Origin: a bacterium | Lineage (GTDB): Archaea > Thermoplasmatota > Thermoplasmata > Lutacidiplasmatales > UBA184 | DNA length: 49,725 nucleotides | Direction: 5' to 3' | Assembly: GCA_027309555.1 (NCBI GenBank) | Contig: DAIDCO010000005.1 | Span: 1-49,725, forward strand | Shown: positions 34,465 through 48,742 of the stretch, piece after piece | Position numbering within the stretch: the first letter of the stretch is position 1 | Layout: each line of letters opens with the position of its first letter | Made by a program: the position numbers and the translations under genes | The notes under the pieces: model-generated | Seen by the model: the letters and a program-made list of their open reading frames with translations, nothing else | What the model was told of the DNA's origin: nothing | Databases searched by the model: none

Positions 34465-35182
34465 GAAGTCGCTCGTCTCGGTCGACCGGGTCGAGCATCT
34501 CGAGGTCGAGGGGATCGACGTCTCGGGCGACTGGAACACGTTCCTGCGCTCGCGCGTGGTGACCGACCTCGACGTGAAGATCGCCGATTGGGTGAAGGGC
34601 CAGCCGCAGGGCGAGACGATCTCGCGCTGCTGGCAGTGCGGGACGTGCACGGCCGGCTGTTGCCTCCACACCGACTACGGGCTCGAGGAGTTCAATCCGC
34701 GCTACTTCATCTACCTCGCCCAGATCGGCTACGAGGAAGAGCTCCGACGATATGCGAGCACGATCTGGCGCTGCGTTTCCTGCAACAAGTGCGTCGAGCG
34801 CTGCCCGAAGGGCGTGAAGGTCGAGGAGGTCATCCACACGATCGGCACGTACCTCGAACTGTCGGGCGGAGCGGCGGAGAGTCCCGCCGACCGCTTCGAC
34901 CGCGCCTACACCGAGAACCTGCTCGGGCGCGGCATCCTCGACGAGGCGGCGCTGTTCCGGACCTACGAACGGCTCGAGGGTCGCCGCACTCCGGCCCGAG
35001 AGCTCCTGCGCCTGGGCCTCACTCTCCTCAAGAGCGGGCGACTCCACACCGGGCCGTTCGCGCACCGTACGCGGGGGTGGAACCGGATGCGCAAGGTCCT
35101 CGAGGCGAAACTGACCGAGGACCGCGCGCGCCGACGCGCGAGCGTTCCCGCTCCCCCGGTACCCTCCGGGAGGAAACCATGA
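34451..35182 (+). CDS. shdrC2: sHdrC2, iron-sulfur subunit
   Basis: 243 aa with two canonical 4Fe-4S sites: C60-x2-C63-x2-C66-x3-C70 and C108-x2-C111-x2-C114-x3-C118, followed by CPKGVKVEEVIHTIG as in HdrC proteins. It should link HdrA with HdrB2. The ATG lies within the end of the preceding gene, and its stop overlaps the hdrB2 start as ATGA. The C-terminal ~40 residues are basic and Pro-rich and probably flexible. Confidence 0.9.
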   Translation: MPIVEKSLVSVDRVEHLEVEGIDVSGDWNTFLRSRVVTDLDVKIADWVKGQPQGETISRCWQCGTCTAGCCLHTDYGLEEFNPRYFIYLAQIGYEEELRRYASTIWRCVSCNKCVERCPKGVKVEEVIHTIGTYLELSGGAAESPADRFDRAYTENLLGRGILDEAALFRTYERLEGRRTPARELLRLGLTLLKSGRLHTGPFAHRTRGWNRMRKVLEAKLTEDRARRRASVPAPPVPSGRKP

Positions 35183-36114
35183 ACGCGGCTCCCGCTCGGG
35201 GCCCCGTCGATGCGGTCCCCGCGTACTACCCGGGATGCTCGCTCGACGGCCTCGGCAAGGCCTACGAGGTGACCTGCCAGCAGGTCCTCGACCGGCTCGA
35301 CCTCTCGCTCGACCGGATCGTCGACTACAACTGCTGCGGAGCGACCGAGGTGAAGAACCTGAGCCAGGACGTCTCGATCGCCTTGCCAGCCCGGAATCTC
35401 GCGCTCGCTCGGTCGATGGACCGGCACCAGGTCGTCGCCGCCTGCAACGGCTGCGTCTACTCGCTCGCCCGGGCCAACGATGCGGTCCACGAAGAGGCGA
35501 CACGCACCCGCATCAACGCGACGCTCCAAGCGGGCGGGTCCCCCGCGTACGACGGGAGCGCATCGGTCCAGCACGTCCTCGAGTTCATCTACCAGCGGGC
35601 CGGCCTCGAGCGCGTGCGCGCCGCGGTCCGCCGGCCGCTCACCGGGCTCACCGTCGCGCCGTACTACGGGTGCCTCTACACCCGTCCGAAGCGCTACACG
35701 GGGGTCGGCACGACTCCCGGCACCGACGACCCGGAGCACCCGCACTTCCTCGACGAGCTCCTTCGGGCCTGTGGGGCCAAGGTCGTCGAGGAGTACTCGG
35801 CGAAGACGATCTGCTGCGGAGGGGGTCACGCGCTCAGCGACCTCGACGTGTCGGTCGCCTTCGGCGCATCGATCCTGAACGAGGCCAAGCGGGCGGGCGC
35901 CGACCTGGTCGCCACGATCTGCCCGCTCGGGCAGATCAACATCGAGAACCATCTCGACCGGATCCGCGCCGAGTTCGGCGAGGAGATCGTTCGGCCCGTC
36001 GCCTACTTCACGCAGCTGATGAGCCTCGCCTTCGGCTCGAGCCTCAAGCAGGCTCGTCTCGGCGACAACTTTTCCCGGCCCGACCTCTTTTTGCGCGCGA
36101 GAGGTTTTGTCTAG
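35179..36114 (+). CDS. shdrB2: sHdrB2, CCG-domain subunit
   Basis: 311 aa. Two CCG domains are recognisable. The N-terminal one is complete: C20, C52-C53-G and C89-x2-C92. The C-terminal one has C165, C212-C213-G and C248, where CPLG replaces the usual CxxC. The start YYPGCSLDG is typical of HdrB. It is the likely catalytic subunit, with a noncubane cluster acting on sulfane sulfur delivered by carrier proteins. The ATG has GGGAGGA eight bases upstream and overlaps the hdrC2 stop. It is followed by the lipoyl-protein gene, as in known sHdr operons. Confidence 0.9.
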   Translation: MNAAPARGPVDAVPAYYPGCSLDGLGKAYEVTCQQVLDRLDLSLDRIVDYNCCGATEVKNLSQDVSIALPARNLALARSMDRHQVVAACNGCVYSLARANDAVHEEATRTRINATLQAGGSPAYDGSASVQHVLEFIYQRAGLERVRAAVRRPLTGLTVAPYYGCLYTRPKRYTGVGTTPGTDDPEHPHFLDELLRACGAKVVEEYSAKTICCGGGHALSDLDVSVAFGASILNEAKRAGADLVATICPLGQINIENHLDRIRAEFGEEIVRPVAYFTQLMSLAFGSSLKQARLGDNFSRPDLFLRARGFV

Positions 36115-36137: not shown

Positions 36138-36587
36138 ATGGCGATCCTGAACGGCTGCGAGTTCCCCGACGATCGGTCCTACTACATCGAGCGCACCCAG
36201 ATGACCTGGGTCCGGGTCGAGGGAGACCGGGTGACCGTGGGCCTGACCGACCCCGCGCAGACCCGGGCGGGGAAGATCCTCCACGTTCGCCTGAAGGCGC
36301 CCGGGACCGCCCGCGAGCGGGGGAAACCGGTCGCGACGGTCGAGAGCGGCAAATGGGCCGGACCGGTGATGGCCCCCATCTCGGGAACGGTCGTCGAGGC
36401 GAACTCCGAGGTCGAAGCGGACCCGTCGCTCCTCAACACGGACCCGTACGGCCGCGGCTGGATCGTGCGGATGACTCCGAGCGCGCCGGCCGAGCTCGCG
36501 ACGCTCCTCACGGGCGACGCCGCGCTCTCGCGCTTCCAGGAGATCCTTGCGAAGGACAATATCCGATGCGTGCGTTGCCAGGCGTGA
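36138..36587 (+). CDS. lbpA: Lipoate-binding protein of the sHdr pathway
   Basis: 149 aa GcvH-like lipoyl protein. The lipoyl-lysine motif VESGKWAGPVMAPISG puts the modified Lys at position 72. In sulfur oxidisers LbpA is not part of glycine cleavage but the specific lipoylated partner of sHdr, carrying sulfur or electrons. The C-terminus ends NIRCVRCQA, a CxxC pair at the very end. A strong purine-rich ribosome-binding region (GGAGGGAGGAAG) precedes the ATG. No glycine-cleavage genes are nearby, while a lipoate ligase gene follows two genes later. A second lipoyl protein is encoded at 39220. Confidence 0.92.
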   Translation: MAILNGCEFPDDRSYYIERTQMTWVRVEGDRVTVGLTDPAQTRAGKILHVRLKAPGTARERGKPVATVESGKWAGPVMAPISGTVVEANSEVEADPSLLNTDPYGRGWIVRMTPSAPAELATLLTGDAALSRFQEILAKDNIRCVRCQA

Positions 36588-36600
36588 GAAGGAAGGACCC

Positions 36601-37005
36601 GTGAGCGAAGCGACCCCCACGAGCCCGACCCCCGACCCGGCGGGAAAGAAGATCCTGATGATCATGACCACCGGGCCGGAAGACCCGGACAAGACCTACG
36701 CCCCGTTCTACACCGCCGCGCTCATGGCGGCGATGGAGATCGACACCACGATGTACTTCCTCATGCACGCGCCCGAGCTCCTGCGCAAGGGCGCGGCGGA
36801 GAAGGTGCCGCTCAAGAAGGGCGGGAACCTCAAGATGTTCGTCGACATGGCCCAGGAGAACGGTGTGAAGTTCGTTGCCTGCGCCGAGAGCTGCCGCGAC
36901 CTCTGCGAGATCGCCCCCGGGGAGCTCATCGACGGGGTGAAGCTGGTCGGCTCCGCGACGATGGCCGACCTCGCGCTCGAGGCCGACTCGGTGCTCTCGT
37001 TCTAG
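36601..37005 (+). CDS. DsrE-family sulfur-carrier protein
   Basis: 134 aa from a GTG start with AGAAGGAAGG upstream. DsrE fold: KKILMIMTTGPEDPDKTYAP opening, hydrophobic alternating strands, and a distal segment FVACAESCRDLCEI with three Cys (94, 98, 102) where most relatives have one functional Cys. It ends in MADLALEADSVLSF, typical of the family. It sits between lbpA and the lipoate ligase in the sHdr operon, so a job in passing sulfane sulfur to or from sHdr is likely. The three-Cys arrangement is unusual, and could bind a metal or form a disulfide. Confidence 0.85.
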   Translation: MSEATPTSPTPDPAGKKILMIMTTGPEDPDKTYAPFYTAALMAAMEIDTTMYFLMHAPELLRKGAAEKVPLKKGGNLKMFVDMAQENGVKFVACAESCRDLCEIAPGELIDGVKLVGSATMADLALEADSVLSF

Positions 37006-37032
37006 TGCCCCACCCGTGGGAGTCGGACCTCC

Positions 37033-38157
37033 ATGCACGTCTGGCGTTGGCTCGACCTCGGCGGGGTCGACGGCGCCACGATGGTCAACGTCTTCGTCGC
37101 GCTGGCGGGGCCGGTGGGGGCGGGGCGTTCCCCGCCGACCGTCCTCGCGCTCCACCCCTCCAGCCCGTTCGCGAACGTCGGTTTCCACCAGGAGGCCGAA
37201 CGCGAGATCGACCTCGACTACTGCCGCGACCACCACATCCCGGTCGTGCGACGGGTCGTGGGCGGCGGGGCGATCCTCGACGGCCCGTGGGAGCAGGACT
37301 ACATGGTGATCGTGCCGGCGGGTGCCCCTGGGACGGACGGGGGCGTCGCCGGCTTCTACGAGCGCTACCTTGCGCCGGTGCGCGCGACCCTGGCCCGGCT
37401 CGGGGTCGCCGCCGAGCGTTCGGGGGTCAACGACCTCGCCAGCGGCGGCCGCAAGGTGAGCGCGAACGGGGCGATGATGCTCGACGGGAGCTGGGTGCTG
37501 GTCGGCGACCTCCTCCTCGACGTCGACGTAGCCGCGATGAGCCGCGTGCTCCGGGTCCCGGACGAGAAGTTCCGCGGCAAGCTCGCGAGCGGCATGGCGG
37601 AGTGGCTCACCTCGGTCCGGGCCGTGACCGGCCGCGCGCCCGAACGCCCGCAGGTCGTCGCGCTGCTTCGGGAGGAGTTCGCCCGCGCGTTCGCGGTCGA
37701 GCTCTCCGACGGGAGCCTGACCGAGGAGGAGTCCCGGTCTCTCAGGGAGCTCCGGGGCTCCCGGACGACGGCGGAGTGGACGTTCCAGAAGGACCGGGCC
37801 CACCCCGGGCTCGCCGCCGCCCCCGAGGAAGGACGCGCGATCAAGATCTCGAGCGAGGCGACCCTCGCCCGCGCCGACCGCAAGGCGGGCAAGCTCGTCC
37901 GCGTGACGCTCCTCTACCGTCGCGGACGGATCGACGAGGTACAGTTCTCGGGGGACTTCTTCACCCAGCCGTTCGATGGCCACATCGCCGAGCTCGAAAA
38001 GGCGCTCGCGGGCGTCCCGCTCGCCGAGCCCGAGATCACCCGGGTGGTCGCCGAATGGTTGCGCTCGCGGTCGGTCCAGTTGATCGGGGCGGGCCCGACC
38101 GACCTCGCGAAGACGATCCTCGCGGCGGCGGCGCTCCCCCCGGCCTCGCCGTCGTAG
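37033..38157 (+). CDS. Lipoate-protein ligase for the sHdr lipoyl protein
   Basis: 374 aa of the LplA family. Motifs: RRVVGGGAILDGPWEQDY (the RRxxGGG lipoyl-AMP loop) and SGVNDLASGGRKVSANGAM, with the catalytic Lys after GR. Residues ~255-350 resemble the C-terminal accessory domain of full-length ligases (GDFFTQPFDGHIAELEKAL). It should activate lipoate or octanoate with ATP and attach it to LbpA Lys72. It is the last gene of the plus-strand operon, 27 bases after the dsrE-type gene, and ends 22 bases from the stop of the converging second ligase gene. No lipoyl synthase is visible in the window. Confidence 0.87.
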   Translation: MHVWRWLDLGGVDGATMVNVFVALAGPVGAGRSPPTVLALHPSSPFANVGFHQEAEREIDLDYCRDHHIPVVRRVVGGGAILDGPWEQDYMVIVPAGAPGTDGGVAGFYERYLAPVRATLARLGVAAERSGVNDLASGGRKVSANGAMMLDGSWVLVGDLLLDVDVAAMSRVLRVPDEKFRGKLASGMAEWLTSVRAVTGRAPERPQVVALLREEFARAFAVELSDGSLTEEESRSLRELRGSRTTAEWTFQKDRAHPGLAAAPEEGRAIKISSEATLARADRKAGKLVRVTLLYRRGRIDEVQFSGDFFTQPFDGHIAELEKALAGVPLAEPEITRVVAEWLRSRSVQLIGAGPTDLAKTILAAAALPPASPS

Positions 38158-38179: not shown

Positions 38180-39223
38180 TCAGTCGAAACCGGACGTGCG
38201 CTCGACGGCGCGACGCAGCGTCGCGAGCGCCGGCGCGTCTGGGGGAAGGGGGACCGCGGGCTCCCCACCGTGGTCGGAGAGCAGAAACCCCTCGCGGAGC
38301 TCGCTCCCGTCGACGATCGCGATCTCGAGCCCCTCGCCTTCCGCGTGGTCGAAGACCAGGATCCCACGCGGGCCGGCGATCCGCAACTTTCGGATCGGCC
38401 CGCCGGGAGCGCGGGGGATCGGCGGGAGCTCTCGCCAGGCCGGGTCCTGGTGGCGGGGCCACGTCTCGGTTTCGAACCGCCGTTCCTCGGCGGGGAGCGG
38501 TGGGCCGCGGCGGGCGTCGAACAGCCGCTCGGCGCGGAACGCCTCTACCAGCGCGCGCGTGAGCACCTCCCAACGCGGCGGCGCGCCGGTCTCGCGCTCC
38601 CAGGAGGTCATCCACCGGTCGACCTCGCGCCGAACGATCGGCCGGAGGCCGGGAGCAGGAAGGCGTACGAGGTCGGTCATGGTCCGGGTATCGGCGCGGC
38701 CGAGGAACCCCCCGACCAGGAGGTGCGCCCCGTCCCAGTCGCCGCCCGCGTTTCCCGAGATCTTCCGTTCGCCGACCACGAGGTCGCTCGGAACGCGGAG
38801 CTCGGCGGCGAGGCCGAGCGACCGGGCGGCCCGCACCGGCCCCGCTAGGAACCGCGCGAGGTCGGCGGGTCCGCCCGGCCCGCCGGCCTCGTCGCGGTAG
38901 ACCAGCTGATAGAACCCCTGGTCCGGGTCGAGGTAGGTCGTGCCGCCCCCTTCGACCCGCCGCAGCACCGGTAGCGGGCGGCGCTCGAGGAACCCCGGAT
39001 CGAGCTCCTCGACGAACGACTGGTGAAAGCCGAGGGAGATGTAGGGCGCGTCGGGCTGCGCGACGAGCAGGGTGTTCGGCGCTTCGTTCGCGGCGACCGA
39101 GGCGGCGACGGCTTCCACGAACGCCTGGGCGCGTTCGGGGGCGCATCGCCCGAGGTCGAGGAGCCGCCAGACGGGGAGCTCGTCCGCGCGGGGCGAGGCC
39201 GTTCCGCGGTCGGAGGCGTTCAC
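38180..39223 (-). CDS. Second lipoate-protein ligase-like protein
   Basis: 347 aa from a GTG that overlaps the stop of the lipoyl-protein gene (GTGA). It shares the ligase core with the enzyme at 37033: YISLGFHQSF, LRRVEGGGTTYLDPDQGFY, and DLVVGERKISGNAGG with the catalytic Lys. The C-terminal ~90 residues differ (KLRIAGPRGILVFDHAEGEG) and do not look like the usual accessory domain. Being coupled to its own lipoyl protein, it is probably dedicated to it. It is the last gene of the long minus-strand run. Confidence 0.82.
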   Translation of the reverse strand: MNASDRGTASPRADELPVWRLLDLGRCAPERAQAFVEAVAASVAANEAPNTLLVAQPDAPYISLGFHQSFVEELDPGFLERRPLPVLRRVEGGGTTYLDPDQGFYQLVYRDEAGGPGGPADLARFLAGPVRAARSLGLAAELRVPSDLVVGERKISGNAGGDWDGAHLLVGGFLGRADTRTMTDLVRLPAPGLRPIVRREVDRWMTSWERETGAPPRWEVLTRALVEAFRAERLFDARRGPPLPAEERRFETETWPRHQDPAWRELPPIPRAPGGPIRKLRIAGPRGILVFDHAEGEGLEIAIVDGSELREGFLLSDHGGEPAVPLPPDAPALATLRRAVERTSGFD

Positions 39224-39621
39224 CGCTCTTCCCCGTCGGTCCGTCGTCCCGCGCGGGCTTCGAGGGCTCCCGGGTCGCGCGGTCGCATCCGGTAGAGCCA
39301 GCCGGCGCCGTACGGATCCCGAAGGATGAGGGACGGGTCGGCTTCGGCGCTCGCGTTCCCTTCGAGGACCGTGCCGTCGACGGGGAGCCCGAGATGCCCG
39401 ACCCACTTCTCCGACTCGAGCGAGAGGGCCGACTCTCCGGCGGTGTAGGTGCGGCCGACCGTGGGGCCCCGGAATCGGGCGATCCGCCCGGCCCGCTGGA
39501 CGCCCCCCTCGGTCAGCCCGACGACGTACGAGCCGTCCGGCGCGCGACGGAACCAGAGGTCCGGGCCGATCGGGCAGGCGGTCGCGCGCGGAGACGGCGG
39601 GCCCGGCGCGGCGAAAGGCAT
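39220..39621 (-). CDS. Second GcvH-like lipoyl protein
   Basis: 133 aa. The lipoyl site is LSLESEKWVGHLGLPVDGTV with Lys72, the same position as in LbpA, followed by EGNASAEADPSLILRDPYGAGWLYRM, which parallels the DPSLLNTDPYGRGWIVRM end of LbpA. The C-terminal CxxC of LbpA is absent. It lies 6 bases after DUF1641 and overlaps the second ligase gene by four bases. Given its coupling to the SQR-like gene pair, it may be a lipoyl carrier for sulfide-quinone oxidoreduction or a variant sHdr partner. This is inference from position. Confidence 0.82.
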   Translation of the reverse strand: MPFAAPGPPSPRATACPIGPDLWFRRAPDGSYVVGLTEGGVQRAGRIARFRGPTVGRTYTAGESALSLESEKWVGHLGLPVDGTVLEGNASAEADPSLILRDPYGAGWLYRMRPRDPGALEARAGRRTDGEER

Positions 39622-39627
39622 CGCCTC

Positions 39628-40335
39628 CTACCGCGATGGACCCGGGGGTGCCGACGTCCGACCGAGCCCCTTCAGGAGCAGCAGCAGCACCTTGAGGCCC
39701 CGCTGGGTCTCGGGATCGCGCAGCGCCCGACCGATCGCAAAGACCCCCGAGACGTCCGGGATCTCGGCGATCGCCTTCTCGCGGGCGGCCGGGTTCGCGA
39801 GCACGCCCGAGGAGTCGGAGAGCATCGAGAGCGTCGGTCCGGCTCGCACGGCCGCGTGGACGAGCGGCTCGATCTCCTCCTTCGAGGGCAGCGACTCGAT
39901 GAAGTGGACCCAGCCGATCGCGGAGGCCCCGGCATGCGCGACCATCCCATCGGTCGTCGCCTGGGCCACCCCGACCAGCCCTTCCGCTAGCGTCACGAGG
40001 GTCTCGAGCGCGCCGGTCTCCTTCCACTCGGCGAGCCGGTCGATGAGGAAGAGCACCGCGTCGCGGCGGCGCTCGTCCTCGGCGACCCAGTCCAGCAGCG
40101 AGAGGGCGCCGACGAGGGTCGAGCCGGCCGAGACGAGCATCCGGTCGGTTACCGCGTCGCTCACTCCCACCACCCCTTCGGCGATGGAGAAGAGCCGGTC
40201 GAGGGTGCCGTCCGACTGCCAGCGCGCGAGGCGATCGCCGAGCAGTTGGATCGCCGCGGCGGGGTCCGGTACGGCCGGGCCGGGGGCGCCGGAGGCGCTC
40301 GCGGCCGGGGCGGCGGGTGCGGGAGGGGACGTCAT
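39628..40335 (-). CDS. DUF1641-family protein
   Basis: 235 aa. An Ala/Pro-rich N-terminus of ~25 residues is followed by two internally similar helical segments (LDRLFSIAEGVVGVSDAVTD and LETLVTLAEGLVGVAQATTD), the pattern of the DUF1641 family, which is frequently encoded beside SQR-like flavoproteins in archaea and bacteria. There are no cofactor motifs and no Cys. It starts 10 bases after the SQR-like gene stops, so they are cotranscribed. The likely role is an accessory or docking subunit of the SQR-like enzyme. Confidence 0.8.
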   Translation of the reverse strand: MTSPPAPAAPAASASGAPGPAVPDPAAAIQLLGDRLARWQSDGTLDRLFSIAEGVVGVSDAVTDRMLVSAGSTLVGALSLLDWVAEDERRRDAVLFLIDRLAEWKETGALETLVTLAEGLVGVAQATTDGMVAHAGASAIGWVHFIESLPSKEEIEPLVHAAVRAGPTLSMLSDSSGVLANPAAREKAIAEIPDVSGVFAIGRALRDPETQRGLKVLLLLLKGLGRTSAPPGPSR

Positions 40336-40345: not shown

Positions 40346-41494
40346 CTAGAACAGCGCGCGCGCCGTCAGGTCCCAGTACGTCCGGTTGTAGATCACCTTG
40401 TTCCAGTAGTGCGCGAACGAGGGGGTCGGAGGGTGCGGCGGGTGCAGGTAGTCGAACTTGATGTACGTCGCTTGGGAGAGCCCGGTCATGATCCAGCAGT
40501 AGACGCGACCCTCGTAGCGGGCGGTCGCGGCCTCGCCCCGGACGACCGACGCGACGTTCTGCGTGACGACCTCGGCCTCGTAGTCCGCCGTCGATCCGGC
40601 TTTCGAGATCGGGATGTTGGTCGCGTCCCCGAGGACGAAGATACTGTCCTTGCCCTCGGCCATCAGGCTGTACTTGTCGGTCGGGATCCAGTTGCCCTTG
40701 TCGCCGAGCCCGGACGCGCCCACGTAATCGGCGCCGCGGTGCGGGGGGATCGCGATCAGGAGGTCGTAGGGGATCGACTCTCCCTCGACCCCCTTCAGCG
40801 TCTTCCCCGCGGCGTCGATCTTCTCGACGTTGAAGGGGACGTGCACCGTCACGCCGCGTTCGCCCATCAAACGCTGCATCGGTTGCGCCACGGTGTCAAT
40901 GCCGAAGACCTTGGGGATCGGGTAGGTGTAGTGGATCTCGCACTTGTCGCGGATCCCCCGGCCGCGGAGGAAGTCGTCCAGCATTAGGGTCACCTCGAGC
41001 GGTGCGACCGGACACTTGTACGGCATGCCCGCAACCGAGATCACGATCTTTCCGCCCTGGAACGCATGCAGCGCCGCCCGGAGCTTCTGGGCATTGGCGA
41101 GGTCGTAGAAGCTGTGAGCGCCCTCGACGAACCCCGGAGTGAGCTCGGGATGGATCACCGAGCCGCTCGCGATCACGAGGACGTCGTACGGAACCTCCTT
41201 CCCACCCTTCAGGAGAACCTTGTGACCGGCCGCGTCGACCTTGTCGACCTCGGCCTTGACGAGCTGGACCGAGCGATGGAGGAGGCCGCTCTCCTCGCGC
41301 CGGGTCTCTTCCGGCCGCATCTTGTCGAAGACGACCATGAGGTAGCCGGGCTGGTAGGCATGGATGCCCTCCCGGTCGATGAGATGGATCTGGACCTGAC
41401 CACTCGCGACCTCCGTTTCGAGCGCCTTGCGAATCCGATTCGCCGCCGTCGTTCCGCCGATGCCGCCTCCCAGTACCACCACTCGCTTCGTCAC
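40346..41494 (-). CDS. Sulfide:quinone oxidoreductase-like flavoprotein
   Basis: 382 aa from a GTG with GGAGG eight bases upstream. FAD-binding loop VVVLGGGIGGTTAANRIRKA, second signature YDVLVIASGS, and a C-terminal IFVLGDATNIP. Redox-active Cys candidates are C161 in the MPYKCPVAPLE segment and C333 in RVYCWIMTG, as in SQR; C185 is extra and the third Cys seen in some SQRs is absent. SQR oxidises sulfide to sulfane sulfur at the membrane and reduces quinone. The C-terminus is aromatic (HYWNKVIYNRTYWDLTARALF), suiting a monotopic membrane contact. It is preceded by tusA and followed by DUF1641. Confidence 0.85.
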   Translation of the reverse strand: MTKRVVVLGGGIGGTTAANRIRKALETEVASGQVQIHLIDREGIHAYQPGYLMVVFDKMRPEETRREESGLLHRSVQLVKAEVDKVDAAGHKVLLKGGKEVPYDVLVIASGSVIHPELTPGFVEGAHSFYDLANAQKLRAALHAFQGGKIVISVAGMPYKCPVAPLEVTLMLDDFLRGRGIRDKCEIHYTYPIPKVFGIDTVAQPMQRLMGERGVTVHVPFNVEKIDAAGKTLKGVEGESIPYDLLIAIPPHRGADYVGASGLGDKGNWIPTDKYSLMAEGKDSIFVLGDATNIPISKAGSTADYEAEVVTQNVASVVRGEAATARYEGRVYCWIMTGLSQATYIKFDYLHPPHPPTPSFAHYWNKVIYNRTYWDLTARALF

Positions 41495-41519: not shown

Positions 41520-41792
41520 CTAATGGGTCTTCCGTATCACGTATCGATCGAACCCGGACTCGGCGCGCACCTCGATCAACTGGTGCTTCGCCTTCTCGAG
41601 CCAGAGCGGGACGTCGCGTCGCGAGCCCTCGTCGCTCGAAAGGAGCTCGAACTCCGTTCCGACCGGCTCTTCCTGGATGACGCGGACGAGCTCCATGAGC
41701 GGTCCGGGGCACCAGCTTCCGCGCGCGTCGACGACCATTCGCCGGGCCTCGTCGGGGGGGACCGACGCCGTCGCGTTCTCCGTCTCGCTCAT
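41520..41792 (-). CDS. tusA: TusA-family sulfurtransferase, copy 1
   Basis: 90 aa. The active-site box is VDARGSWCPGPLMELVR with C28 and the CPxP motif, and LLSSDEGSRRDVPLWLEKAKH follows as in TusA. It carries persulfide between enzymes. The ATG overlaps the stop of the upstream dsrE-like gene (ATGA), and the SQR-like gene starts 25 bases downstream, so this copy probably accepts sulfur made by SQR or hands it to the DsrE-type partner. Confidence 0.9.
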   Translation of the reverse strand: MSETENATASVPPDEARRMVVDARGSWCPGPLMELVRVIQEEPVGTEFELLSSDEGSRRDVPLWLEKAKHQLIEVRAESGFDRYVIRKTH

Positions 41793-42226
41793 ATGAAGTA
41801 GGTCACGTTCGCCGCCCGGGTCCGGTCGACGAACGTCGCGACCCCCGTGACCCCCTCCACGATGGGGTCGAGGTCGGAGGGGGACAGCCCCAGGATATCC
41901 ATCGACTGAGAGCAGGCGTAGATGTGGAGCTCCCCGAGCGAGCGGGCCATCTCGAGGATCGTCTTCCAGTTCGGCGCGTTCTTCTCCCGGAGCCGCGTTT
42001 CGAGACGAGCACCGGCTTCCCCGTGTCCCGGACTCACGGTCGGCGGAGCGCTCGCGCTCGGAGCTCGGAACGCCTCGAGGCCCCAGTAACTCGCAAAGAC
42101 ATCCACGCGCAAGCCCATCGCGATCGCCCCGCTCACCAGGGTGGCGAAAGGGAGCAGCTTGTCGGCCGAGTTCTCGGTGAGCACGACGGCCATCTGTTCG
42201 ATGGGGGGGGCCGCGTCCTCCGCCAC
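41789..42226 (-). CDS. DsrE2/E3-type sulfur-carrier protein
   Basis: 145 aa from a GTG with GGAGGGGGG about eight bases upstream; an internal ATG at 42193 lacks such a site. The DsrE-like sequence has AVVLTENSADKLLPFATLVS, VDVFASYWGLEAF, and the active-site segment IYACSQSMDILGL with the single Cys C105. This is the type that works with TusA in archaeal and bacterial sulfur oxidisers, moving thiosulfate or persulfide groups. The adjacent overlapping tusA supports this. Confidence 0.87.
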   Translation of the reverse strand: MAEDAAPPIEQMAVVLTENSADKLLPFATLVSGAIAMGLRVDVFASYWGLEAFRAPSASAPPTVSPGHGEAGARLETRLREKNAPNWKTILEMARSLGELHIYACSQSMDILGLSPSDLDPIVEGVTGVATFVDRTRAANVTYFI

Positions 42227-42255: not shown

Positions 42256-42741
42256 CTAGATGAAGAGGGTCAGCGCGTCCGGCCGGGACGCGAGCTCGAG
42301 GTACGTGCTCGCGCCGATGATGTCGTCCACCTCGTTCACGAGGCTCGCCTTCGTCATTCCGAACATGTCCATCGTCGGCGAGCAGGCGTGAATGTGCACG
42401 CCGGCCTGCTTCGCCTGCTGCATGAACTGCTCGACCGTGGGAAACTTCGCCGCGATCGCTTGCTGCATCGGTGGGGGGAACACGTCCATCGACTTCTTCC
42501 GCCCCTCGGGAGTGAGGAGCTGCATTCCCCAGAACGTGAAGTACATGTGCGCCTCCATCCCGAGCGCCCGCGCGGTCGTCGCGAGGATGAGGGACGGGTA
42601 CGCCATGTCCGCTCCTCCTTTTGAGACCACGAGGATCAGCGACTTCTTGCCCTCTCGCTTCGCCTGTTCGACCGAATCTGACCCTTTCGTCGCAACTGCT
42701 CCCGCGGTCATGGTTCCTTCGTTTTCCTCCGTATCCTTCAC
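42256..42741 (-). CDS. DsrE2/E3-type sulfur-carrier protein, paralogue
   Basis: 161 aa if the GTG overlapping the tusA stop is used; an ATG at 42711 preceded by GAAGGA is an equally good start and gives 151 aa. The DsrE-like fold shows LILVVSKGGADMAYPSLILA, AHMYFTFWGMQLLTPEG, and the active-site segment HIHACSPTMDMFGM with C120. It is clearly related to the neighbour at 41789 by its fold and Cys segment. It is paired with the tusA copy at 42738, mirroring the other tusA/dsrE-type pair. Confidence 0.87.
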   Translation of the reverse strand: MKDTEENEGTMTAGAVATKGSDSVEQAKREGKKSLILVVSKGGADMAYPSLILATTARALGMEAHMYFTFWGMQLLTPEGRKKSMDVFPPPMQQAIAAKFPTVEQFMQQAKQAGVHIHACSPTMDMFGMTKASLVNEVDDIIGASTYLELASRPDALTLFI

Positions 42742-42974
42742 TTGTGCTCGAGCACGAACCGGTACGTTCCCGCGCTCTCGGTGTTCTCGCGGAGCGGGTG
42801 TCCGGTCCGCTTCGCGAACGCTGCGAAGTCCGAGGGGGCCGCCGGGTCGTCGGCCAGGACCTCGAGCTGCTCCCCGGGCTTCAACGTCTCCATCAGAGAG
42901 CTCGCTTTAAGGATCGGCATCGGGCAGAAAAGTCCCCGCGCGTCGAGGTGGGCCATTCCCTGGACTGCCGACAT
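42738..42974 (-). CDS. tusA: TusA-family sulfurtransferase, copy 2
   Basis: 78 aa from the ATG at 42974; an ATG at 42998 would lie upstream of the transcription start predicted from the TATA-like element at 43010-43017. Active-site box HLDARGLFCPMPILKASSLM with C17 and CPMP. Conserved DDPAAPSDFAAFAKRTGH follows, as in TusA. The stop overlaps the start of the dsrE-type gene. A shared promoter element precedes it, so this may begin a separate transcript within the minus-strand run. Confidence 0.9.
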   Translation of the reverse strand: MSAVQGMAHLDARGLFCPMPILKASSLMETLKPGEQLEVLADDPAAPSDFAAFAKRTGHPLRENTESAGTYRFVLEHK

Positions 42975-43009
42975 GGTGAGAAACCTTCGCACGGCCATGC
43001 GGGAGTGGC

Positions 43010-43032
43010 TATTTTGACTTTACGATTGTCCA
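43010..43032 (-). promoter_or_regulatory. Promoter and candidate operator for tusA-dsrE genes
   Basis: Read on the minus strand: TTGGACAATCGTAAAG then a TATA-like CAAAATAG. The first part (43022-43032) is identical over 11 bases to the element before hdrC1, and the arrangement TTGGACAA ... AAAGT ... ATAG matches that before aprB. It overlaps the last codons of the upstream unknown gene. Confidence 0.45.
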
Positions 43033-43439
43033 AGGAGGTCGGAGCCATCTCGAGGCCCCTCGACCGGGCGGGGCTCGGGGCTCACGACCACGTCCCGACG
43101 CTCCAGCACGGCCGCCTTCGGCACGGTGAGGATGTTGCGGTAGGCGGGAAACAGGTCGACTCCGTACCGCTCGACAAAGGGAGGGTTCTCGAGAGCGAAA
43201 GCGACCTCGCCGAGCGCGAGGAACTCATCGTCCTCCCGCAGGAGGACCCCGGCCGCGTGGAAGACCGGCCCGGCGAGCCGCTCCGGCCGATCGGGGAACT
43301 CGAGCGGGTTCGGGTCGCGGTAGCGCAAGTAGACGACGCGCACCGTGGGAGGGGGGCTACTCGTGAGGCCCCCGCGGGAACCCGAGGCCTCCTCGTGCAT
43401 GGGAAGGGGGACGAACGGTGGCGGGGATTCGTCGTTCAC
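43020..43439 (-). CDS. Unknown protein in the dsrEFH run
   Basis: 139 aa from a GTG overlapping the dsrH-like stop (GTGA). I do not recognise it. The first ~30 residues are Pro/Ser-rich and probably disordered. The core has VRVVYLRYRDPNPLEFPDRP, a PVFHAAGVLLREDDEFLALGEVAF segment and VERYGVDLFPAYRNILTVPK. It has no Cys, signal peptide or membrane helix. Translational coupling to the DsrEFH-like genes suggests it works with them; the compact layout resembles a small ligand-binding or regulatory domain. Confidence 0.65.
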   Translation of the reverse strand: MNDESPPPFVPLPMHEEASGSRGGLTSSPPPTVRVVYLRYRDPNPLEFPDRPERLAGPVFHAAGVLLREDDEFLALGEVAFALENPPFVERYGVDLFPAYRNILTVPKAAVLERRDVVVSPEPRPVEGPRDGSDLLGQS

Positions 43440-43768
43440 GGGAGCTGGATCACCCGTTCCGCGGCCATGAGCCCTTCGACCAGTTCTGCGGCCGTGACCA
43501 CCCGCACCGTTCCCTCGGGAGGCAACCGGAGTCCCCGACCCCGGGCGTCATCGTCGACGACCCAGCAGGCGGGCGTCGCCCCCCGTGCCGATAGGAGCGA
43601 CACGTCCTCCGCATCGTAGCTCGCGCTCCCAAGCAGGACGAGGACGACCTCCTGGCCCGCCGCGGCGAGCCGGCGCGCGACCGCGGCTGTCACGCTGCGC
43701 TCCTCCGGACCGAGCGGGCCGGTCTGGATCAGGATCGCTCGGGGTGCGGAGCCCGCGGTGGCGTTCAC
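43436..43768 (-). CDS. DsrH/TusB-like protein
   Basis: 110 aa from a GTG overlapping the dsrF-like stop. The central DDDARGRGL and the end VTAAELVEGLMAAERVIQL parallel DsrH/TusB, the smallest subunit of the DsrEFH (TusBCD) heterohexamer. The only Cys is C68; the conserved N-terminal Cys of bacterial DsrH is absent. Assignment rests on weak motif similarity plus position immediately after DsrE- and DsrF-like genes. A longer GTG/ATG start upstream would overlap DsrF more. Confidence 0.6.
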   Translation of the reverse strand: MNATAGSAPRAILIQTGPLGPEERSVTAAVARRLAAAGQEVVLVLLGSASYDAEDVSLLSARGATPACWVVDDDARGRGLRLPPEGTVRVVTAAELVEGLMAAERVIQLP

Positions 43769-44133
43769 AGCGGCACCACCCGGGAGGCCCGGATCACCCA
43801 TTCCGCGGCCCCTTCGTCGTCGACCTCTTCCACGGCCAGCCCCTCGACGACCGCGGAGCGGTCGAGACCCCTATGCCCGAGCGACGGGCCGTGCACCAGT
43901 GCGGGCCGTTCGCGGGTCACGATCCCCTGGAGCGTCTTCGTGATCGGCGGGGCGTAGCGATACGGTTCTTGTCCCCGCACGATCGCGCGTACCCCGTCGC
44001 CCACGAACAGCCAGCGCACCGGCAGGTCCAAGGCCGTCGACATCGCCGCCAGCCGGATCGCCTCCGAAAAATGCACCGTGGAATGCGGGAGGTGGCGGAC
44101 CCACAACAGGACCGGCCGCTCGGGTCCGTTCAC
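43765..44133 (-). CDS. DsrF/TusC-like protein
   Basis: 122 aa from a GTG overlapping the dsrE stop by four bases. The start VLLWVRHLPHSTVHFSEAIR and the segment WLFVGDGVRAIVRGQEPYRY match DsrF/TusC (xxFxxDGVxxLxxGQxP). It contains no Cys, as expected of a structural subunit. It would form the middle ring of a DsrEFH hexamer that transfers sulfur with TusA. Placement between DsrE-like and DsrH-like genes in E-F-H order supports this. Confidence 0.72.
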   Translation of the reverse strand: MNGPERPVLLWVRHLPHSTVHFSEAIRLAAMSTALDLPVRWLFVGDGVRAIVRGQEPYRYAPPITKTLQGIVTRERPALVHGPSLGHRGLDRSAVVEGLAVEEVDDEGAAEWVIRASRVVPL

Positions 44134-44489
44134 GTCTCCCCCGTGAACGCGAGAAAGCGGTCGGCGGAGCGGAGGAGCTCGGTGAGGTCCTCGAGCGTGC
44201 CGTTGCGCGCGTTCGGGATCAGGGCCCCGTCGTCGAGGCCGCGGAAGCGCGCACACGTCCCGCAGTTCACGAGCTCGGCGGCCGATGGGAGCCGCGCGAT
44301 CCGGTGGAGCACGCTCTCCTCCGGGGCTCCGAGGAGGGCCCGGCTCGAGCAATAGACGGCGTCGGCGAGGAGAAAGAGCGTCACCCGATGTCCCTGGGCC
44401 GTCGCGGCCTCGGCGAGTGAGACCGCCGTCTCGACCGACCGGTGCTGGACGGGCGACGTAAACAGGAGGATCCCGAGATGACCGTTCAC
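44130..44489 (-). CDS. DsrE/TusD-like sulfurtransferase subunit
   Basis: 119 aa from a GTG overlapping the previous stop. DsrE fold: LGILLFTSPVQHRSVETAVS, LFLLADAVYCSSR, and the active-site segment LVNCGTCARFRGLDD with C76 and C79, next to the RG motif that follows the sulfur-carrying Cys (near residue 78) of bacterial DsrE/TusD. It ends LTELLRSADRFLAF, as in the family. As catalytic subunit of a DsrEFH-like complex it would accept persulfide from TusA or sHdr. This E type differs from the DsrE2/E3 proteins at 41789 and 42256. Confidence 0.78.
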   Translation of the reverse strand: MNGHLGILLFTSPVQHRSVETAVSLAEAATAQGHRVTLFLLADAVYCSSRALLGAPEESVLHRIARLPSAAELVNCGTCARFRGLDDGALIPNARNGTLEDLTELLRSADRFLAFTGET

Positions 44490-44731
44490 GGTGCCATCGA
44501 CCCCGTGAGCACGCGCCAGCCCGCGCGGGTGCAGATGTACGTTCGACCGTCGATACGCACGAGCCCGCCGAGGTCGACGCTGCTCTCGTAGAAGAGGCGG
44601 TGCAGCACGGCGACGTGCGTGGGTTCCTCGGCCGGGGTGCCGGACTCCATAGACTCCGCTTCGAACGGGTCCCCCACTTGCCGCAGGATGCGGACGGCGG
44701 GGGGTCGGTCGGACGCCGCCGGCTCAACCAT
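44486..44731 (-). CDS. Small unknown protein between mrp and dsrE
   Basis: 81 aa from an ATG that overlaps the end of the mrp gene by 8 bases; its stop overlaps the GTG of dsrE. I do not recognise it. Features: ILRQVGDPFEAESMESGTP, then LHRLFYESSVDLGGLVRIDG and a C-terminal YICTRAGWRVLTG, which has the look of a small winged-helix or SH3-like fold. One Cys. Being locked between an Mrp-type ATPase and DsrE by overlaps, it is expected at similar levels, perhaps as an adaptor. Confidence 0.6.
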   Translation of the reverse strand: MVEPAASDRPPAVRILRQVGDPFEAESMESGTPAEEPTHVAVLHRLFYESSVDLGGLVRIDGRTYICTRAGWRVLTGSMAP

Positions 44732-45683
44732 GGACGTCGGCCCCCGGGGGACGTCCGGACGCCTCCGACGGACTCTGAGCGGCGCGGGCGGAGCGAACGC
44801 GGTCGAGGAGCAGCCGCACTCGACCGGCCACAAGGGCCGTTTCGGGGGAGCGGAACTCCTCGATCCGCCCCGTGTCGGCGAGCGCGGGTAGCCCGGGAGC
44901 GATCGGGAGACTTCCGAGGTACGGGATCCCCATCCGGGACGCGAACTCGGGTCCGCGCGACGGGCCGAACAGATCGATCCGCTCCCCGTGGGGACAGGTG
45001 AGGTAGGCCATGTTCTCGATCAGCCCGAGGATTGGGGCCGAGAAGGTCTTCGCCATCGCGGAGGATTTCGCCACGACCTCCGCCGAGAGCTCGGTCGGAG
45101 CGGTCACGATGACCACGCCGTCCGGGTCGAGCGACTGGAAGACCGTCATCGGCGCGTCGCTCGTGCCCGGCGGCAGATCGACCAGGAGGTAATCGAGCTC
45201 GGGCCAGGCCGTATCCTTGAACAGGCCCCGGATGGCGCTGTTGATCATCGGGCCCCGCCAGATGAGCGGGATCTGCGTGGCGGCGGTCACCGCCGCCATC
45301 GACATGACGTAGACGCCCCCCTTCGATCGGAGCGGCTCGATCCGGCGGCCGTCCGGAGTGAGCTGCGGGACCTCCGTCACCCCGAATACCCGGGCGATCG
45401 AGGGGCCGGTGATATCCGCGTCCAGCACGCCGACGCGCGCGCCTTCACGGCGGAACTCGGACGCGAGCATCGCGGCGACGTAGGTCTTCCCCACGCCGCC
45501 CTTCCCGGAAAGCACGGCGAGAACCGAACGCACTCGGGAGCGGTCGAGCCGGCCGATAGCGAACGTCGCATCCGCGGCCGGCATCTTCCGGGGCGCCGAG
45601 CCGATCATGGGCAGCGGCACGGAGATTTCGTCCTCGGGAGACCGCCCCATCGGGGACGACCAACCGACGCGGCTACCTAACAC
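44724..45683 (-). CDS. Mrp/NBP35-type P-loop ATPase
   Basis: 319 aa if the GTG at 45683 is used, about 30 bases from a TATA-like GATAAGCC; an ATG at 45650 is possible. Deviant Walker A VLSGKGGVGKT (G60-T67), LDADITGPSIARVFG, DLPPGTSDAPMTVFQSL, and VTAPTELSAEVVAKS are classic Mrp/ApbC motifs for Fe-S cluster carriage. The usual CPxC near the C-terminus reads LTCPHGERIDLFG, so the second cluster-binding Cys is missing. It likely serves Fe-S insertion into the many cluster proteins of this island (HdrABC, AprBA, FixX). First gene of the minus-strand run; divergent from DUF1059. Confidence 0.85.
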   Translation of the reverse strand: MLGSRVGWSSPMGRSPEDEISVPLPMIGSAPRKMPAADATFAIGRLDRSRVRSVLAVLSGKGGVGKTYVAAMLASEFRREGARVGVLDADITGPSIARVFGVTEVPQLTPDGRRIEPLRSKGGVYVMSMAAVTAATQIPLIWRGPMINSAIRGLFKDTAWPELDYLLVDLPPGTSDAPMTVFQSLDPDGVVIVTAPTELSAEVVAKSSAMAKTFSAPILGLIENMAYLTCPHGERIDLFGPSRGPEFASRMGIPYLGSLPIAPGLPALADTGRIEEFRSPETALVAGRVRLLLDRVRSARAAQSPSEASGRPPGADVHG

Positions 45684-45781: not shown

Positions 45782-45964
45782 ATGTCCAAGGTCGCGTTCG
45801 CGTGTGCATCGCTGGGGTTCTCGTGCGAGTGGGCGCTCCGGGCCGGCTCCTCGGAGGAGCTGCTCGACCGGGTGCGCGAGCACGCTCGCTGTGCTCACAA
45901 GCTCACGGACCTCTCGCCGGAGCTCGTCCAGCGGGTCGAAGCCGGCATCCACCCGGCGTCGTAG
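45782..45964 (+). CDS. DUF1059-family small protein
   Basis: 60 aa: VAFACASLGFSCEWALRAGS, then a helical segment EELLDRVREHARCAHKLTDL and SPELVQRVEAGI. This is the compact Cys/His-containing DUF1059 family, common in archaea and of unknown function, with Cys at 8, 15 and 37 that could bind metal. The ATG at 45782 is the only sensible start. It lies 24 bases before fixX on the same strand and divergent from mrp. Confidence 0.75.
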   Translation: MSKVAFACASLGFSCEWALRAGSSEELLDRVREHARCAHKLTDLSPELVQRVEAGIHPAS

Positions 45965-45987: not shown

Positions 45988-46281
45988 ATGGGAGAACGCG
46001 TCTCCCTCGCCGAGCGTCTGGGGGCGGACGCGTTTGACACGGACTCGACCTCTCACCTCACGCTCTCCGACCCGGCGCTCTGCCGGACCTGCGCGCTGAG
46101 GCCCTGCATACGGGTCTGCCCCGCCGAGGTCTACCAATGGGAAGAGGACCGGCTTCGGATCCGCTACGAGAACTGTCTCGAGACCGGGGCCTGCCGCATC
46201 GCGTGCGATACGATGGGAAACCACGCCCTCGTCTGGGCATTCCCGCCCGCGGGCCGCGGCATCCAGTACCGCCTCGGCTGA
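45988..46281 (+). CDS. fixX: FixX-type ferredoxin-like protein
   Basis: 97 aa. Cys pattern C32-x2-C35-x4-C40-x3-C44 and C63-x5-C69-x3-C73, followed by WAFPPAGRGIQYRLG, the FixX signature. FixX normally partners FixC (ETF-quinone oxidoreductase) and takes electrons from electron-transfer flavoprotein. Neither FixC nor FixAB is in the window. Position between the sulfur-transfer run and aprBA suggests it could carry electrons from AprBA or from sHdr/LbpA toward quinone; that is inference. A hairpin follows its stop. Confidence 0.88.
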   Translation: MGERVSLAERLGADAFDTDSTSHLTLSDPALCRTCALRPCIRVCPAEVYQWEEDRLRIRYENCLETGACRIACDTMGNHALVWAFPPAGRGIQYRLG

Positions 46282-46436: not shown

Positions 46437-46883
46437 ATGCCGACCTACGTTCGAACCGACAAGTGCAAAGGCTGCATGGAGTGCGTCACGATCTGTCCGA
46501 GCGACATCATGCACATCGATGCGGCCCAGGGACGGGCGTACAACATCGAGCCGGCCATGTGCTGGGAGTGCTACGCCTGCGTGAAGTCCTGCCCCGAGGC
46601 CGCGATCGAGGTCCGCGGATATGCGGACTTCGCGCCGCTCCATCACTCCGTCCAGCCGACGCGGACCGCCGACAAGATCGAGTGGAAGATCCGCATGCGG
46701 AACGGGGACCTCAAGGAGTTCGTCTTCCCCATTCGGACGACCCCGTGGGATTCGATCCGGCCCCCGCAGGAGTCCGCACCGCCGAACGAGGAAGCCGTCG
46801 CGAGCGAGCTCCTTTCCTTCGAACCGGACTACCTCGCGGTCGAGTCGCTTCCGACCCTTCCCCCGAAGGCGGGAGCGCCGTAA
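46437..46883 (+). CDS. aprB: Adenylylsulfate reductase, beta (iron-sulfur) subunit
   Basis: 148 aa. Two 4Fe-4S clusters are indicated by C10-x2-C13-x2-C16-x3-C20 and C42-x2-C45-x2-C48-x3-C52, with the typical opening MPTYVRTDKCKGCMECV. The middle, HHSVQPTRTADKIEWKIRMR followed by EFVFPIRTTPWDSI, matches AprB, whose tail wraps around AprA. It transfers electrons to or from the FAD of AprA. The ATG has GGAG eight bases upstream; aprA follows after 17 bases. The pathway direction is not encoded, but the sHdr/SQR context argues for oxidation of sulfite to APS. Confidence 0.95.
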   Translation: MPTYVRTDKCKGCMECVTICPSDIMHIDAAQGRAYNIEPAMCWECYACVKSCPEAAIEVRGYADFAPLHHSVQPTRTADKIEWKIRMRNGDLKEFVFPIRTTPWDSIRPPQESAPPNEEAVASELLSFEPDYLAVESLPTLPPKAGAP

Positions 46884-46900: not shown

Positions 46901-48742
46901 ATGACGGACGTTCCGGCCCACCCGACGACCCACACGGTCGACTGCGACATTCTGATCATCGGCGGGGGCTTCGCCGGTTGCGGAGCCGCCTTCGAAGCGC
47001 GCTACTGGGGACGCGACCTCAAGATCGTCGTCGCCGAGAAGGCGGCGATCGAGCGGAGCGGCGCGGTCGCCCAGGGCCTCAGCGCGATCAACTGCTACAT
47101 GGGCATGCGCTGGAACGAGAACCAGCCCGAGGACTTCGTACGGTACGTCCGCAACGACCTCATGGGGCTCTCCCGCGAGGACCTCGTCTACGACATCGCG
47201 CGGCACGTCGACTCGACCGTCCACCTGTTCGAAGAGTGGGGGCTGCCGATCTTCACCGACCCCAAGACCGGACGCTACGTCCGGGAAGGCCGCTGGCAGA
47301 TCATGATCCACGGCGAGTCGTACAAGCCGCTCATCGCCGAGGCCACGCGCAAGTCGGCCTCCGAGATCCACGAGCGGATCATGGTGACCCACCTCCTGCG
47401 GGACGCGAAGGACCCGAAGCGGATCGCCGGCGCGGTCGGGGTCAATGTGCGCGACGGCTCTTTCTACGTCTTCCGGGCGAGGGCGGTCATCGTTTCCGCC
47501 GCCGGGGCCTCCCACATCTTCCGGCCGCGGTCCGCGGGCGAGGGCGCGGGGAGGACCTGGTATCCCCCGTGGGCCTCCGGCTCGGCGTACGCGCTCCTCA
47601 TCCAGGCGGGGGCCGAGATGACCCAGATGGAGAACCGCCTGGTCGTCACGCGATTCAAGGACGGATACGGTCCGGTGGGAGCTTGGTTCCTCCTCTTGAA
47701 GGCGATCGCGACGAACGCCGCGGGGGAATCCTACGAGACCTCTCGCCTTCCCGAACTGCGGGAGCGAGTGGGGGCGTACGCCGACGCGAAGCCGATGCCG
47801 ACGTGCCTTCGGAACCACCTGATGCTGCAGGAGATCCTTGCGGGCCGCGGGCCGATCCTGCTCCACACCGAGCGCGTCCTCGACACGCCCGAAAAGGAGT
47901 CAATCGGCTGGGAGGATTTCCTCAACATGACGATCGGTCAGGCCGTGACCTGGGCCTCCCAAGGGATCGAACCGAAGAACGTCCCGTCCGAGCTGATCCT
48001 ATCCGAGCCGTACGTGATGGGCTCCCACGCGGTCTGCGCCGGCGCCTGGACGAGCGGACCGGGGGACGTAGCGCCCGAGGAGTACCGCTGGGGCTACAAC
48101 CGCATGACGACGATCGCCGGCCTCTTCGGCGCGGGGGACACCGTCGGCGGCTCCGCGCACAAGTTCTCGAGCGGGTCGTACTCCGAGGGACGGCTTGCGG
48201 CGAAGGCCGCGGTCGCCTTCCTCCGGGACCACCCCGAAGCCCCGACGGTCGCCGAAGCGGACGTCGATGCGCTCCGGGAGAAGGTCTACGCCCCCGCGGT
48301 GCACTGGGCCCGCGACGGTCCCGGGATCACCGCCGGCACGGTCCATCCCGAGGTCCTCTTCCCCGACCAGGGGCTCAACCGCCTCGAGAAGATCATGGAC
48401 GAGTACGGGGGGGGCGTGAGCGCGAACTACTCCACGAGCCGCAACCTCCTGGAACGCGGCCTCGGGCACCTCGCGGCGCTCCGGTCCGACCTCGACTTCC
48501 TGGGGGCCCGCGACCTCCACCAGCTCCAGCGTGCCTGGGAGCTCGACCACCGCCTATGGACGGCAGAATCGGTGCTCCGTCACACCCTCTTCCGCGAGGA
48601 GACCCGCTGGCCCGGCTACTACTACCGGGCCGACTTCCCGCACGTGGACGACGAGCGCTGGAAGTGCTTCGTGAACTCGATCTACGACCCCGCGAGCGGA
48701 GAGTGGAAGCTGTTCACGCGCCCGTACCGCCCCCTGTTCTAG
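46901..48742 (+). CDS. aprA: Adenylylsulfate reductase, alpha (FAD) subunit
   Basis: 613 aa, near the usual length. FAD loop LIIGGGFAGCGAAFEARYWG (19-38), KAAIERSGAVAQGLSAINCY, REGRWQIMIHGESYKP, GEGAGRTWYPPW (Trp220, the substrate-stacking Trp of AprA), NRLVVTRFKDGYGPVGAWF (Arg251), YVMGSHAVCAGAW and HKFSSGSYSEGRLAAKA are all AprA hallmarks, and separate it from fumarate reductases and succinate dehydrogenases. With AprB it interconverts APS and sulfite plus AMP in the cytoplasm. GGGGAGAGG precedes the ATG. No qmoABC, aprM or sat gene follows, so the electron acceptor and the ATP-yielding step must be encoded elsewhere or differ. Confidence 0.96.
   Translation: MTDVPAHPTTHTVDCDILIIGGGFAGCGAAFEARYWGRDLKIVVAEKAAIERSGAVAQGLSAINCYMGMRWNENQPEDFVRYVRNDLMGLSREDLVYDIARHVDSTVHLFEEWGLPIFTDPKTGRYVREGRWQIMIHGESYKPLIAEATRKSASEIHERIMVTHLLRDAKDPKRIAGAVGVNVRDGSFYVFRARAVIVSAAGASHIFRPRSAGEGAGRTWYPPWASGSAYALLIQAGAEMTQMENRLVVTRFKDGYGPVGAWFLLLKAIATNAAGESYETSRLPELRERVGAYADAKPMPTCLRNHLMLQEILAGRGPILLHTERVLDTPEKESIGWEDFLNMTIGQAVTWASQGIEPKNVPSELILSEPYVMGSHAVCAGAWTSGPGDVAPEEYRWGYNRMTTIAGLFGAGDTVGGSAHKFSSGSYSEGRLAAKAAVAFLRDHPEAPTVAEADVDALREKVYAPAVHWARDGPGITAGTVHPEVLFPDQGLNRLEKIMDEYGGGVSANYSTSRNLLERGLGHLAALRSDLDFLGARDLHQLQRAWELDHRLWTAESVLRHTLFREETRWPGYYYRADFPHVDDERWKCFVNSIYDPASGEWKLFTRPYRPLF

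Follow-up and report, generated by a model that had tools for sequence, protein, structure and literature searches.

The window analysed here, a 49,725-nucleotide stretch of one contig, comes from the genome of an uncultured Thermoplasmata archaeon of acid-mine origin (G000; 2.04-Mb assembly, 90% complete). On its minus strand, positions 43436-44489 hold exactly three open reading frames, in which a sequence-only reading had recognized three overlapping genes in E-F-H order. This arrangement was confirmed: a DsrE/TusD-like E subunit (44130-44489; 119 aa) with putative sulfur-binding cysteines C76 and C79 is followed by a DsrF/TusC-like F subunit (43765-44133; 122 aa) and a very divergent DsrH/TusB-like H subunit (43436-43768; 110 aa from a GTG start, with an alternative ATG at 43801, upstream of the GTG, that would give 121 aa). 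The TusD-, TusC- and TusB-like motifs quoted in that reading are all present, namely NCGTCARFRG in E (C76 and C79; CxTCARFRG in general form), GDGVRAIVRGQ in F, and DDDARGRGL, with its RGRG, in H. Stop and start codons overlap by 4 nt (GTGA) at the E/F and F/H junctions, and likewise between H and the next gene and between the preceding gene and E, a pattern that fits a single, translationally coupled operon. Chance open reading frames in GC-rich DNA were excluded by subunit-specific homology and conservation, and we identify E, F and H with high confidence as a divergent DsrEFH-like triad.

Profile searches assigned E to DsrE, F to DsrF and, weakly, H to TusB/DsrH. In Pfam, E and F matched the DsrE family above the gathering score (1.1e-12 and 8.1e-6, respectively); H did not reach the cut-off in this search. 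The top NCBIfam match was TusD for E (TIGR03012, 29.8 bits against a curated cut-off of 89.25), TusC for F (TIGR03010, 23 bits against 94.15) and TusB for H (TIGR03011, 12.4 bits against 49.2). Hence, none of the three reaches its own DsrEFH type I/TusBCD equivalog cut-off in NCBIfam, which points to a divergent DsrEFH-like complex. Profiles built from seven orthologues matched two chains of the same crystal structure in the PDB, DsrE for E (2hy5_A, 1.9e-11, with C76 under Cys78) and DsrF for F (2hy5_B, 1e-10). No confident sequence match to the PDB was found for H (TusB, E 0.13), although six of seven H orthologues match TIGR03011 TusB/DsrH (best 3.3e-4), and an H profile aligned with the TusB-like members of other triads (hhalign E 1e-5, probability 82%). 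The AlphaFold2 model of this 110-residue protein (pLDDT 82.6) shows no unrelated fold and instead matches YchN, a Sulfolobus DsrE protein, DsrE of 2HY5 and TusB of 2D1P. Structure prediction and profile comparison together exclude H as an unrelated protein, and it appears to be a DsrE-fold protein with weak but consistent TusB/DsrH similarity. One gene run therefore holds the three DsrE-fold subunits that define a triad of this superfamily, H being assigned by fold and weak profile similarity only. F and E also gave weak hits to transposases, PB2 or thrombospondin, which were set aside as chance matches.

DsrEFH of Allochromatium vinosum (type I; PDB 2HY5; PMC3397948) is likewise made of three DsrE-fold subunits encoded as E-F-H, and its E and F subunits are each about 31% identical to the proteins here within the aligned region. 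E-C76 aligns with A. vinosum DsrE-Cys78; both C76 and C79 were kept in 22/22 distinct E sequences, in which the surrounding motif is invariant too, and the conserved C79 is additional to the A. vinosum arrangement. No alignment column held a cysteine in more than 3 of 20 F sequences or in more than 5 of 21 distinct H sequences, and no equivalent of the conserved DsrH-Cys20 was present among the latter. The sequence-only reading, which had noted a DsrH-like member without the conserved N-terminal cysteine and a cysteine-free DsrF-like member, is thus upheld across the orthologues. Its further suggestion that only DsrE would be redox active agrees with the restriction of conserved cysteines to E, but sulfur on DsrE alone is the normal state, DsrE-Cys78 alone being persulfurated in A. 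vinosum DsrEFH (PMC3397948). In that organism, DsrH-Cys20 is essential in vivo yet dispensable in vitro (PMC3397948), and against this reference a cysteine-less H appears unusual. TusB-like H subunits in two further triads (L051 and L052) score above the TusB cut-off and, judged by eye, also have an N-terminal helix region without cysteine. The great divergence of H and the lack of conserved cysteines in F and H might suggest decayed or scaffold DsrE proteins without sulfur chemistry. We regard this as very improbable, given that none of the 22 distinct E sequences departs from C76, C79 or the motif around them and that gene order and the GTGA overlaps are kept.

The triad lies within a dense block of genes related to sulfur metabolism. 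Immediately upstream, on the same strand and invariably placed between the Mrp and E genes, o80 (44486-44731, ATG at 44731; conserved 21/21) encodes a protein of about 80 aa with no assigned function, zero Pfam matches and one invariant cysteine (position 66, counted from 44728). This cysteine sits in a CTxxGWR motif in one Thermoplasmata family (f1), and the version at locus L109 in a genome of another family is 64 aa long (L109:9345-9539). Next comes an Mrp/NUBPL-type Fe-S carrier ATPase (44724-45683, minus strand, start uncertain; PF10609, 1e-74), which precedes o80-E-F-H wherever the region is in view, L109 included. The genes for APS reductase, AprB (46437-46883; TIGR02060, 2.2e-51) and AprA (46901-48742; TIGR02061, 6.6e-278), both above cut-off, are on the plus strand, divergent from the Mrp-EFH run; a DUF1059 protein (45782-45964) and a small Fer4/ETF-QO-type ferredoxin (45991-46281) are encoded between Mrp and AprB.

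Downstream of H, the minus strand continues with o139 (43020-43439), a conserved orphan in f1 loci that is absent in L109; it is Cys-free and predicted to form a small beta barrel, has no Pfam match, and gave no structural match in the PDB at E ≤1e-3. It is followed by TusA-like sulfur carrier 1 (CPMP; 42738-42998; PF01206, 2.6e-22), a DsrE2-like sulfur carrier (42256-42741; PF13686, 6.4e-29; under the NF047629 cut-off), a second DsrE2-family protein (41789-42226; PF13686, 8.4e-16), TusA-like sulfur carrier 2 (CPGP; 41520-41792; PF01206, 3.7e-16), a type III-like sulfide:quinone oxidoreductase (SQR)-like flavoprotein (40346-41494; NF049943, 1.3e-105, under cut-off; PF07992), a DUF1641 protein (39628-40335; PF07849, 2.8e-10), a second lipoate-binding, GcvH/LbpA-like protein (39220-39621; PF01597, 7.5e-21) and a lipoate-protein-ligase-like protein (38180-39205, start uncertain; PF21948, 1e-22). 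On the plus strand lie the sHdr set (C1 30554-31390, B1 31399-32706, A 32703-33740, hyp 33727-34464, C2 34451-35182, B2 35179-36114), identified by Fer4 and CCG domains, the HdrA family and a gene order kept in relatives, and then LbpA, the GcvH-like lipoate-binding protein of sHdr (36138-36587; PF01597, 1.5e-36), a DsrE3A-like sulfur carrier (36601-37005, start uncertain; PF02635, 5.1e-14), which adjoins LbpA and sHdr in L109 too, and an sLpl-like lipoate-protein ligase (37033-38157; PF21948, 1.5e-30). SQR, relay, sHdr and AprBA together form a complete-looking sulfide-to-sulfate gene set. This single sHdr locus holds two LbpA-like and two lipoate-ligase-like proteins (38180-39621 and 36138-38157). 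Elsewhere in the same genome, a further DsrE protein with distant similarity to E (L031:7186-7950, contig C92, also L002) adjoins another SQR-like gene, and was excluded as part of the triad on that neighbourhood and its 29-31% identity; a second E-like DsrE beside an SQR-like gene also occurs in other congeners (L027:4619 and L028:9690).

To describe the distribution of the triad, we used 78 congeneric genomes and a class-wide sample of 400. In the latter, F turned up in 22 f1 genomes and, as a weak match, in one genome of another family (G138, family f11). The E-F-H order and its neighbours (Mrp, o80, TusA, DsrE2, SQR and LbpA) are kept in these 22 genomes of one family and the one of another, and named relatives that share the locus are MAGs labelled Thermoplasmata archaeon. 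A plasmid search returned only distant, mostly haloarchaeal DsrE proteins. Among the 78 congeners, F and sHdrB1 each occurred in 17, with both in 16, F only in 1, sHdr only in 1 and neither in 60 (Fisher p=1.7e-14, shared ancestry ignored); the genes being neighbours as well, this value overstates the independent evidence, and the co-occurrence partly reflects joint inheritance. For the one congener with F only (G027; 78% complete), the contig stops within the gene adjoining sHdr. In the one with sHdr only (G032), the locus lacks the Mrp-EFH-SQR stretch and tusA stands directly before LbpA2; its sHdr-LbpA-DsrE3A-TusA arrangement without Mrp, EFH and SQR (L102:8013-15324) offers a natural contrast. 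AprA is more widespread than F or sHdr (25/78 congeners). In G138 (L109; 52% GC), tusA-sHdrC1B1AhypC2B2-LbpA-DsrE3A-sLpl-Mrp-o80-E-F-H form one co-directional run on a single strand. EFH both adjoins sHdr-LbpA and co-occurs with it, as would a sulfur-transfer module of sHdr, which would also have to pass sulfur to sHdr or LbpA.

The E motif extends further than this association. CxTCARFRG is common to triads of a Lake Tanganyika archaeon and three bacterial lineages (L051-L054), and hence is not confined to sHdr carriers. At two of these loci, from WOR-3 (L052:9769-11479) and Stahlbacteria (L053:9497-11456), TusA-DsrE-DsrF-DsrH is followed directly by a GcvH/LbpA-like gene, and a search of both genomes with an sHdrB1 query found no homologue; these arrangements may represent a link between EFH and a lipoate-carrier protein apart from sHdr.

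The smallest unit common to family f1 and G138 is Mrp-o80-E-F-H, its genes separated by few-base gaps or overlapping, and for this reason the main rival explanation is that EFH works with Mrp and o80 in Fe-S cluster or cofactor assembly for the Fe-S-rich enzymes sHdr and AprBA, merely travelling with the oxidation pathway. The NUBPL-type Fe-S carrier identity of Mrp and the invariant cysteine of o80 would fit such a role. However, an assembly system would be expected in sHdr-lacking relatives too, and of the 61 sHdr-negative congeners, 60 lack F; moreover, the EFH genes of family f1 run on into TusA, DsrE2 and SQR genes, and the DsrEFH/TusBCD homologues studied to date are sulfur-relay proteins (PMC3397948, PMC13293266). 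We therefore consider a role in Fe-S assembly unlikely, albeit the least unlikely of the alternatives.

The sequence-only reading had remarked that no DsrAB was in view. DsrA and DsrC (PF04358) are in fact absent genome-wide from the window genome; DsrAB is nevertheless not foreign to the clade. DsrA occurs in 4/78 congeners overall and in 3/17 of those bearing F (F against DsrA, Fisher p=0.03, shared ancestry ignored), and DsrC in 2/17 (G033 and G070) as well as in the F-negative G063. Neither was present in six further F-bearing genomes outside the congeners, G138 included, which brings the counts to 3 for DsrA and 2 for DsrC across all 23 F-bearing genomes. An assembly gap can be excluded as a general explanation, with DsrA absent from 14/17 congeneric and 6/6 other carriers. 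On one G033 contig (C12), DsrAB, DsrM/K-like genes and DsrC share the sequence with AprBA, EFH and sHdr, the DsrAB/DsrM/K-like/DsrC region including 4762-7164 and 10591-11061 of L059 and EFH lying near 30.6 kb. A second AprA on this contig (C12:42913-44697) stands beside sHdr, so that both sulfur engines occupy one locus.

Such cases lend some weight to the idea that EFH belongs to the ordinary Dsr pathway and, as its sulfurtransferase, loads DsrC for DsrAB, with the dsr genes mostly lost or unassembled. DsrC is the acceptor in known systems (PMC3397948, PMC13293266), and G070, like G033, has DsrC on its EFH contig. Yet seven of the 14 congeneric carriers without DsrA are at least 90% complete, the six further carriers lack it as well, DsrC is absent from 21/23 carriers, and E, F and H are closely similar, with identical neighbours, in carriers with and without dsr; we judge this explanation improbable. 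The proposal that the triad is associated with sHdr rather than DsrAB is instead supported by the window genome itself, which lacks both DsrA and DsrC, by the co-occurrence across 78 genomes and by the co-directional run in G138. A third alternative starts from Escherichia coli TusBCD (PDB 2D1P), whose D, C and B subunits are homologous one by one to E, F and H and which serves tRNA thiolation via TusE. An equivalent housekeeping role for EFH is hard to credit, since the window genome has no TusE/DsrC homologue, F occurs in just 17/78 congeners, and the gene context differs, the block here being one of sulfur energy metabolism.

Compared with A. vinosum DsrEFH, the triad thus sits in a genome without DsrC and DsrAB and is linked to sHdr, Mrp and SQR. 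The view that DsrEFH is known mainly from bacteria with reverse dissimilatory sulfite reductase, as stated in the sequence-only reading, is out of date: DsrEFH type II, described in May 2026, comprises 985 genomes, some of them archaeal, mostly with reductive DsrAB (PMC13293266). In most genomes (73.9%), type II is accompanied by reductive DsrAB and DsrC. It is encoded as yeeE-tusA-dsrEFH (the YTD cluster) in cable bacteria and sulfate reducers, and in archaeal examples stands beside dsrMK or qmoAB; its DsrE-Cys67 is the sulfur site, and TusA exchanges sulfur with it (PMC13293266). It is the closest published system, sharing with the triad here a divergent DsrEFH, a conserved functional DsrE cysteine, TusA nearby, some archaeal members and a type III SQR in the pathway. 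In the window, tusA lies two genes downstream of EFH, and no yeeE, dsrMK or qmo gene was recognized in the conserved block. Unlike type II, E carries a second invariant cysteine (C79) and the triad is linked to sHdr, mostly without DsrAB/DsrC; a type II-like co-occurrence with reductive dsrAB was not seen, with DsrA absent from the window genome and found in 3/23 F-bearing genomes. Membership of type II is defined by >80 bits with three type II HMMs (PMC13293266); the differences given here concern linkage and cysteine content, and by sequence the triad may still be a type II member. The text of that paper does not mention sHdr gene clusters (PMC13293266).

The sHdr-LbpA system oxidizes sulfur carried on proteins, yielding sulfite, and receives it from sulfur transferases, DsrE3-type proteins among them (PMC11582611, PMC4175335); in Hyphomicrobium, a DsrE3 protein is one of those that deliver sulfur to sHdr (PMC11582611). 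The sulfur-transfer modules of sHdr consist of TusA, DsrE3A/DsrE3C, DsrE2B and Rhd (PMC4175335, PMC11582611), and TusA, DsrE2-like and DsrE3A-like genes are found near sHdr-LbpA here too. What sets this locus apart is the added three-subunit E-F-H, as the published accounts consulted present single DsrE-type proteins and do not mention EFH. No description of an sHdr-linked DsrEFH was found in the literature mentioning both DsrEFH and sHdr, most subscription papers lying outside this search, and the paper describing the order Lutacidiplasmatales, to which the organism of the window may belong, mentions neither Hdr, Apr nor DsrEFH (PMC9287336).

On balance, we think it moderately probable that E, F and H assemble into a divergent sulfurtransferase of the DsrEFH-like kind (probably a hexamer, E2F2H2) and that this complex carries sulfane sulfur within the cytoplasm to sHdr-LbpA. 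The SQR-like enzyme would oxidize sulfide to a persulfide, TusA would pass the sulfur to E-Cys76, with the adjacent Cys79 as a resolving or second site, and the loaded complex would hand it on via TusA, DsrE2 or DsrE3A to sHdr-LbpA, the resulting sulfite leaving via AprBA. F and H may be structural or docking subunits, as they lack conserved cysteines, and EFH as a whole could buffer or gate sulfur passing between SQR/TusA on one side and DsrE3A/sHdr on the other. We infer the hexamer, the persulfide chemistry, the direction of transfer and the acceptor from gene patterns and precedent; that EFH feeds sHdr, as the sequence-only reading suggested, is nonetheless well supported by genomics, because EFH tracks sHdr and not DsrAB/DsrC, including in the G138 run. 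Counting against it, DsrAB and DsrM/K-like genes occur together in some relatives. G032, moreover, keeps sHdr, TusA and LbpA without EFH, indicating that sHdr may work without it, and published sHdr systems use DsrE3-type proteins, of which a DsrE3A-like representative is encoded here too, so that EFH may be accessory. A more far-reaching reading, to which we give slightly less than an even chance, is that Thermoplasmata possess a third, sHdr-dedicated DsrEFH class, with Cys-less F and H, CxTC in E and coupling to Mrp and o80, that passes sulfur to sHdr-LbpA instead of DsrC-DsrAB.

The presence of DsrEFH is used to flag DsrAB-based sulfur oxidation. In these archaea, mostly without DsrAB and DsrC, it marks sHdr-based oxidation. 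That the link between DsrEFH and reverse Dsr is loose was already known from type II, and the linkage to sHdr is what appears to be new here. DsrEFH recruitment has been traced to the ancestor of the oxidative DsrAB of bacteria (PMC12948486, 2026), a placement that a DsrAB-independent archaeal EFH lineage would complicate. For the organisms themselves, the locus points to a complete-looking sulfide-to-sulfate gene set in uncultured Thermoplasmata of mine-drainage-like sites. Across relatives, the triad goes with sHdr instead of its known partner DsrAB, which suggests that the relay can also be coupled to a different pathway, and it offers a simple test of whether the acceptor of this relay is interchangeable. 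If a third class does exist, DsrEFH would be an exchangeable front end for different sulfur-oxidizing engines.
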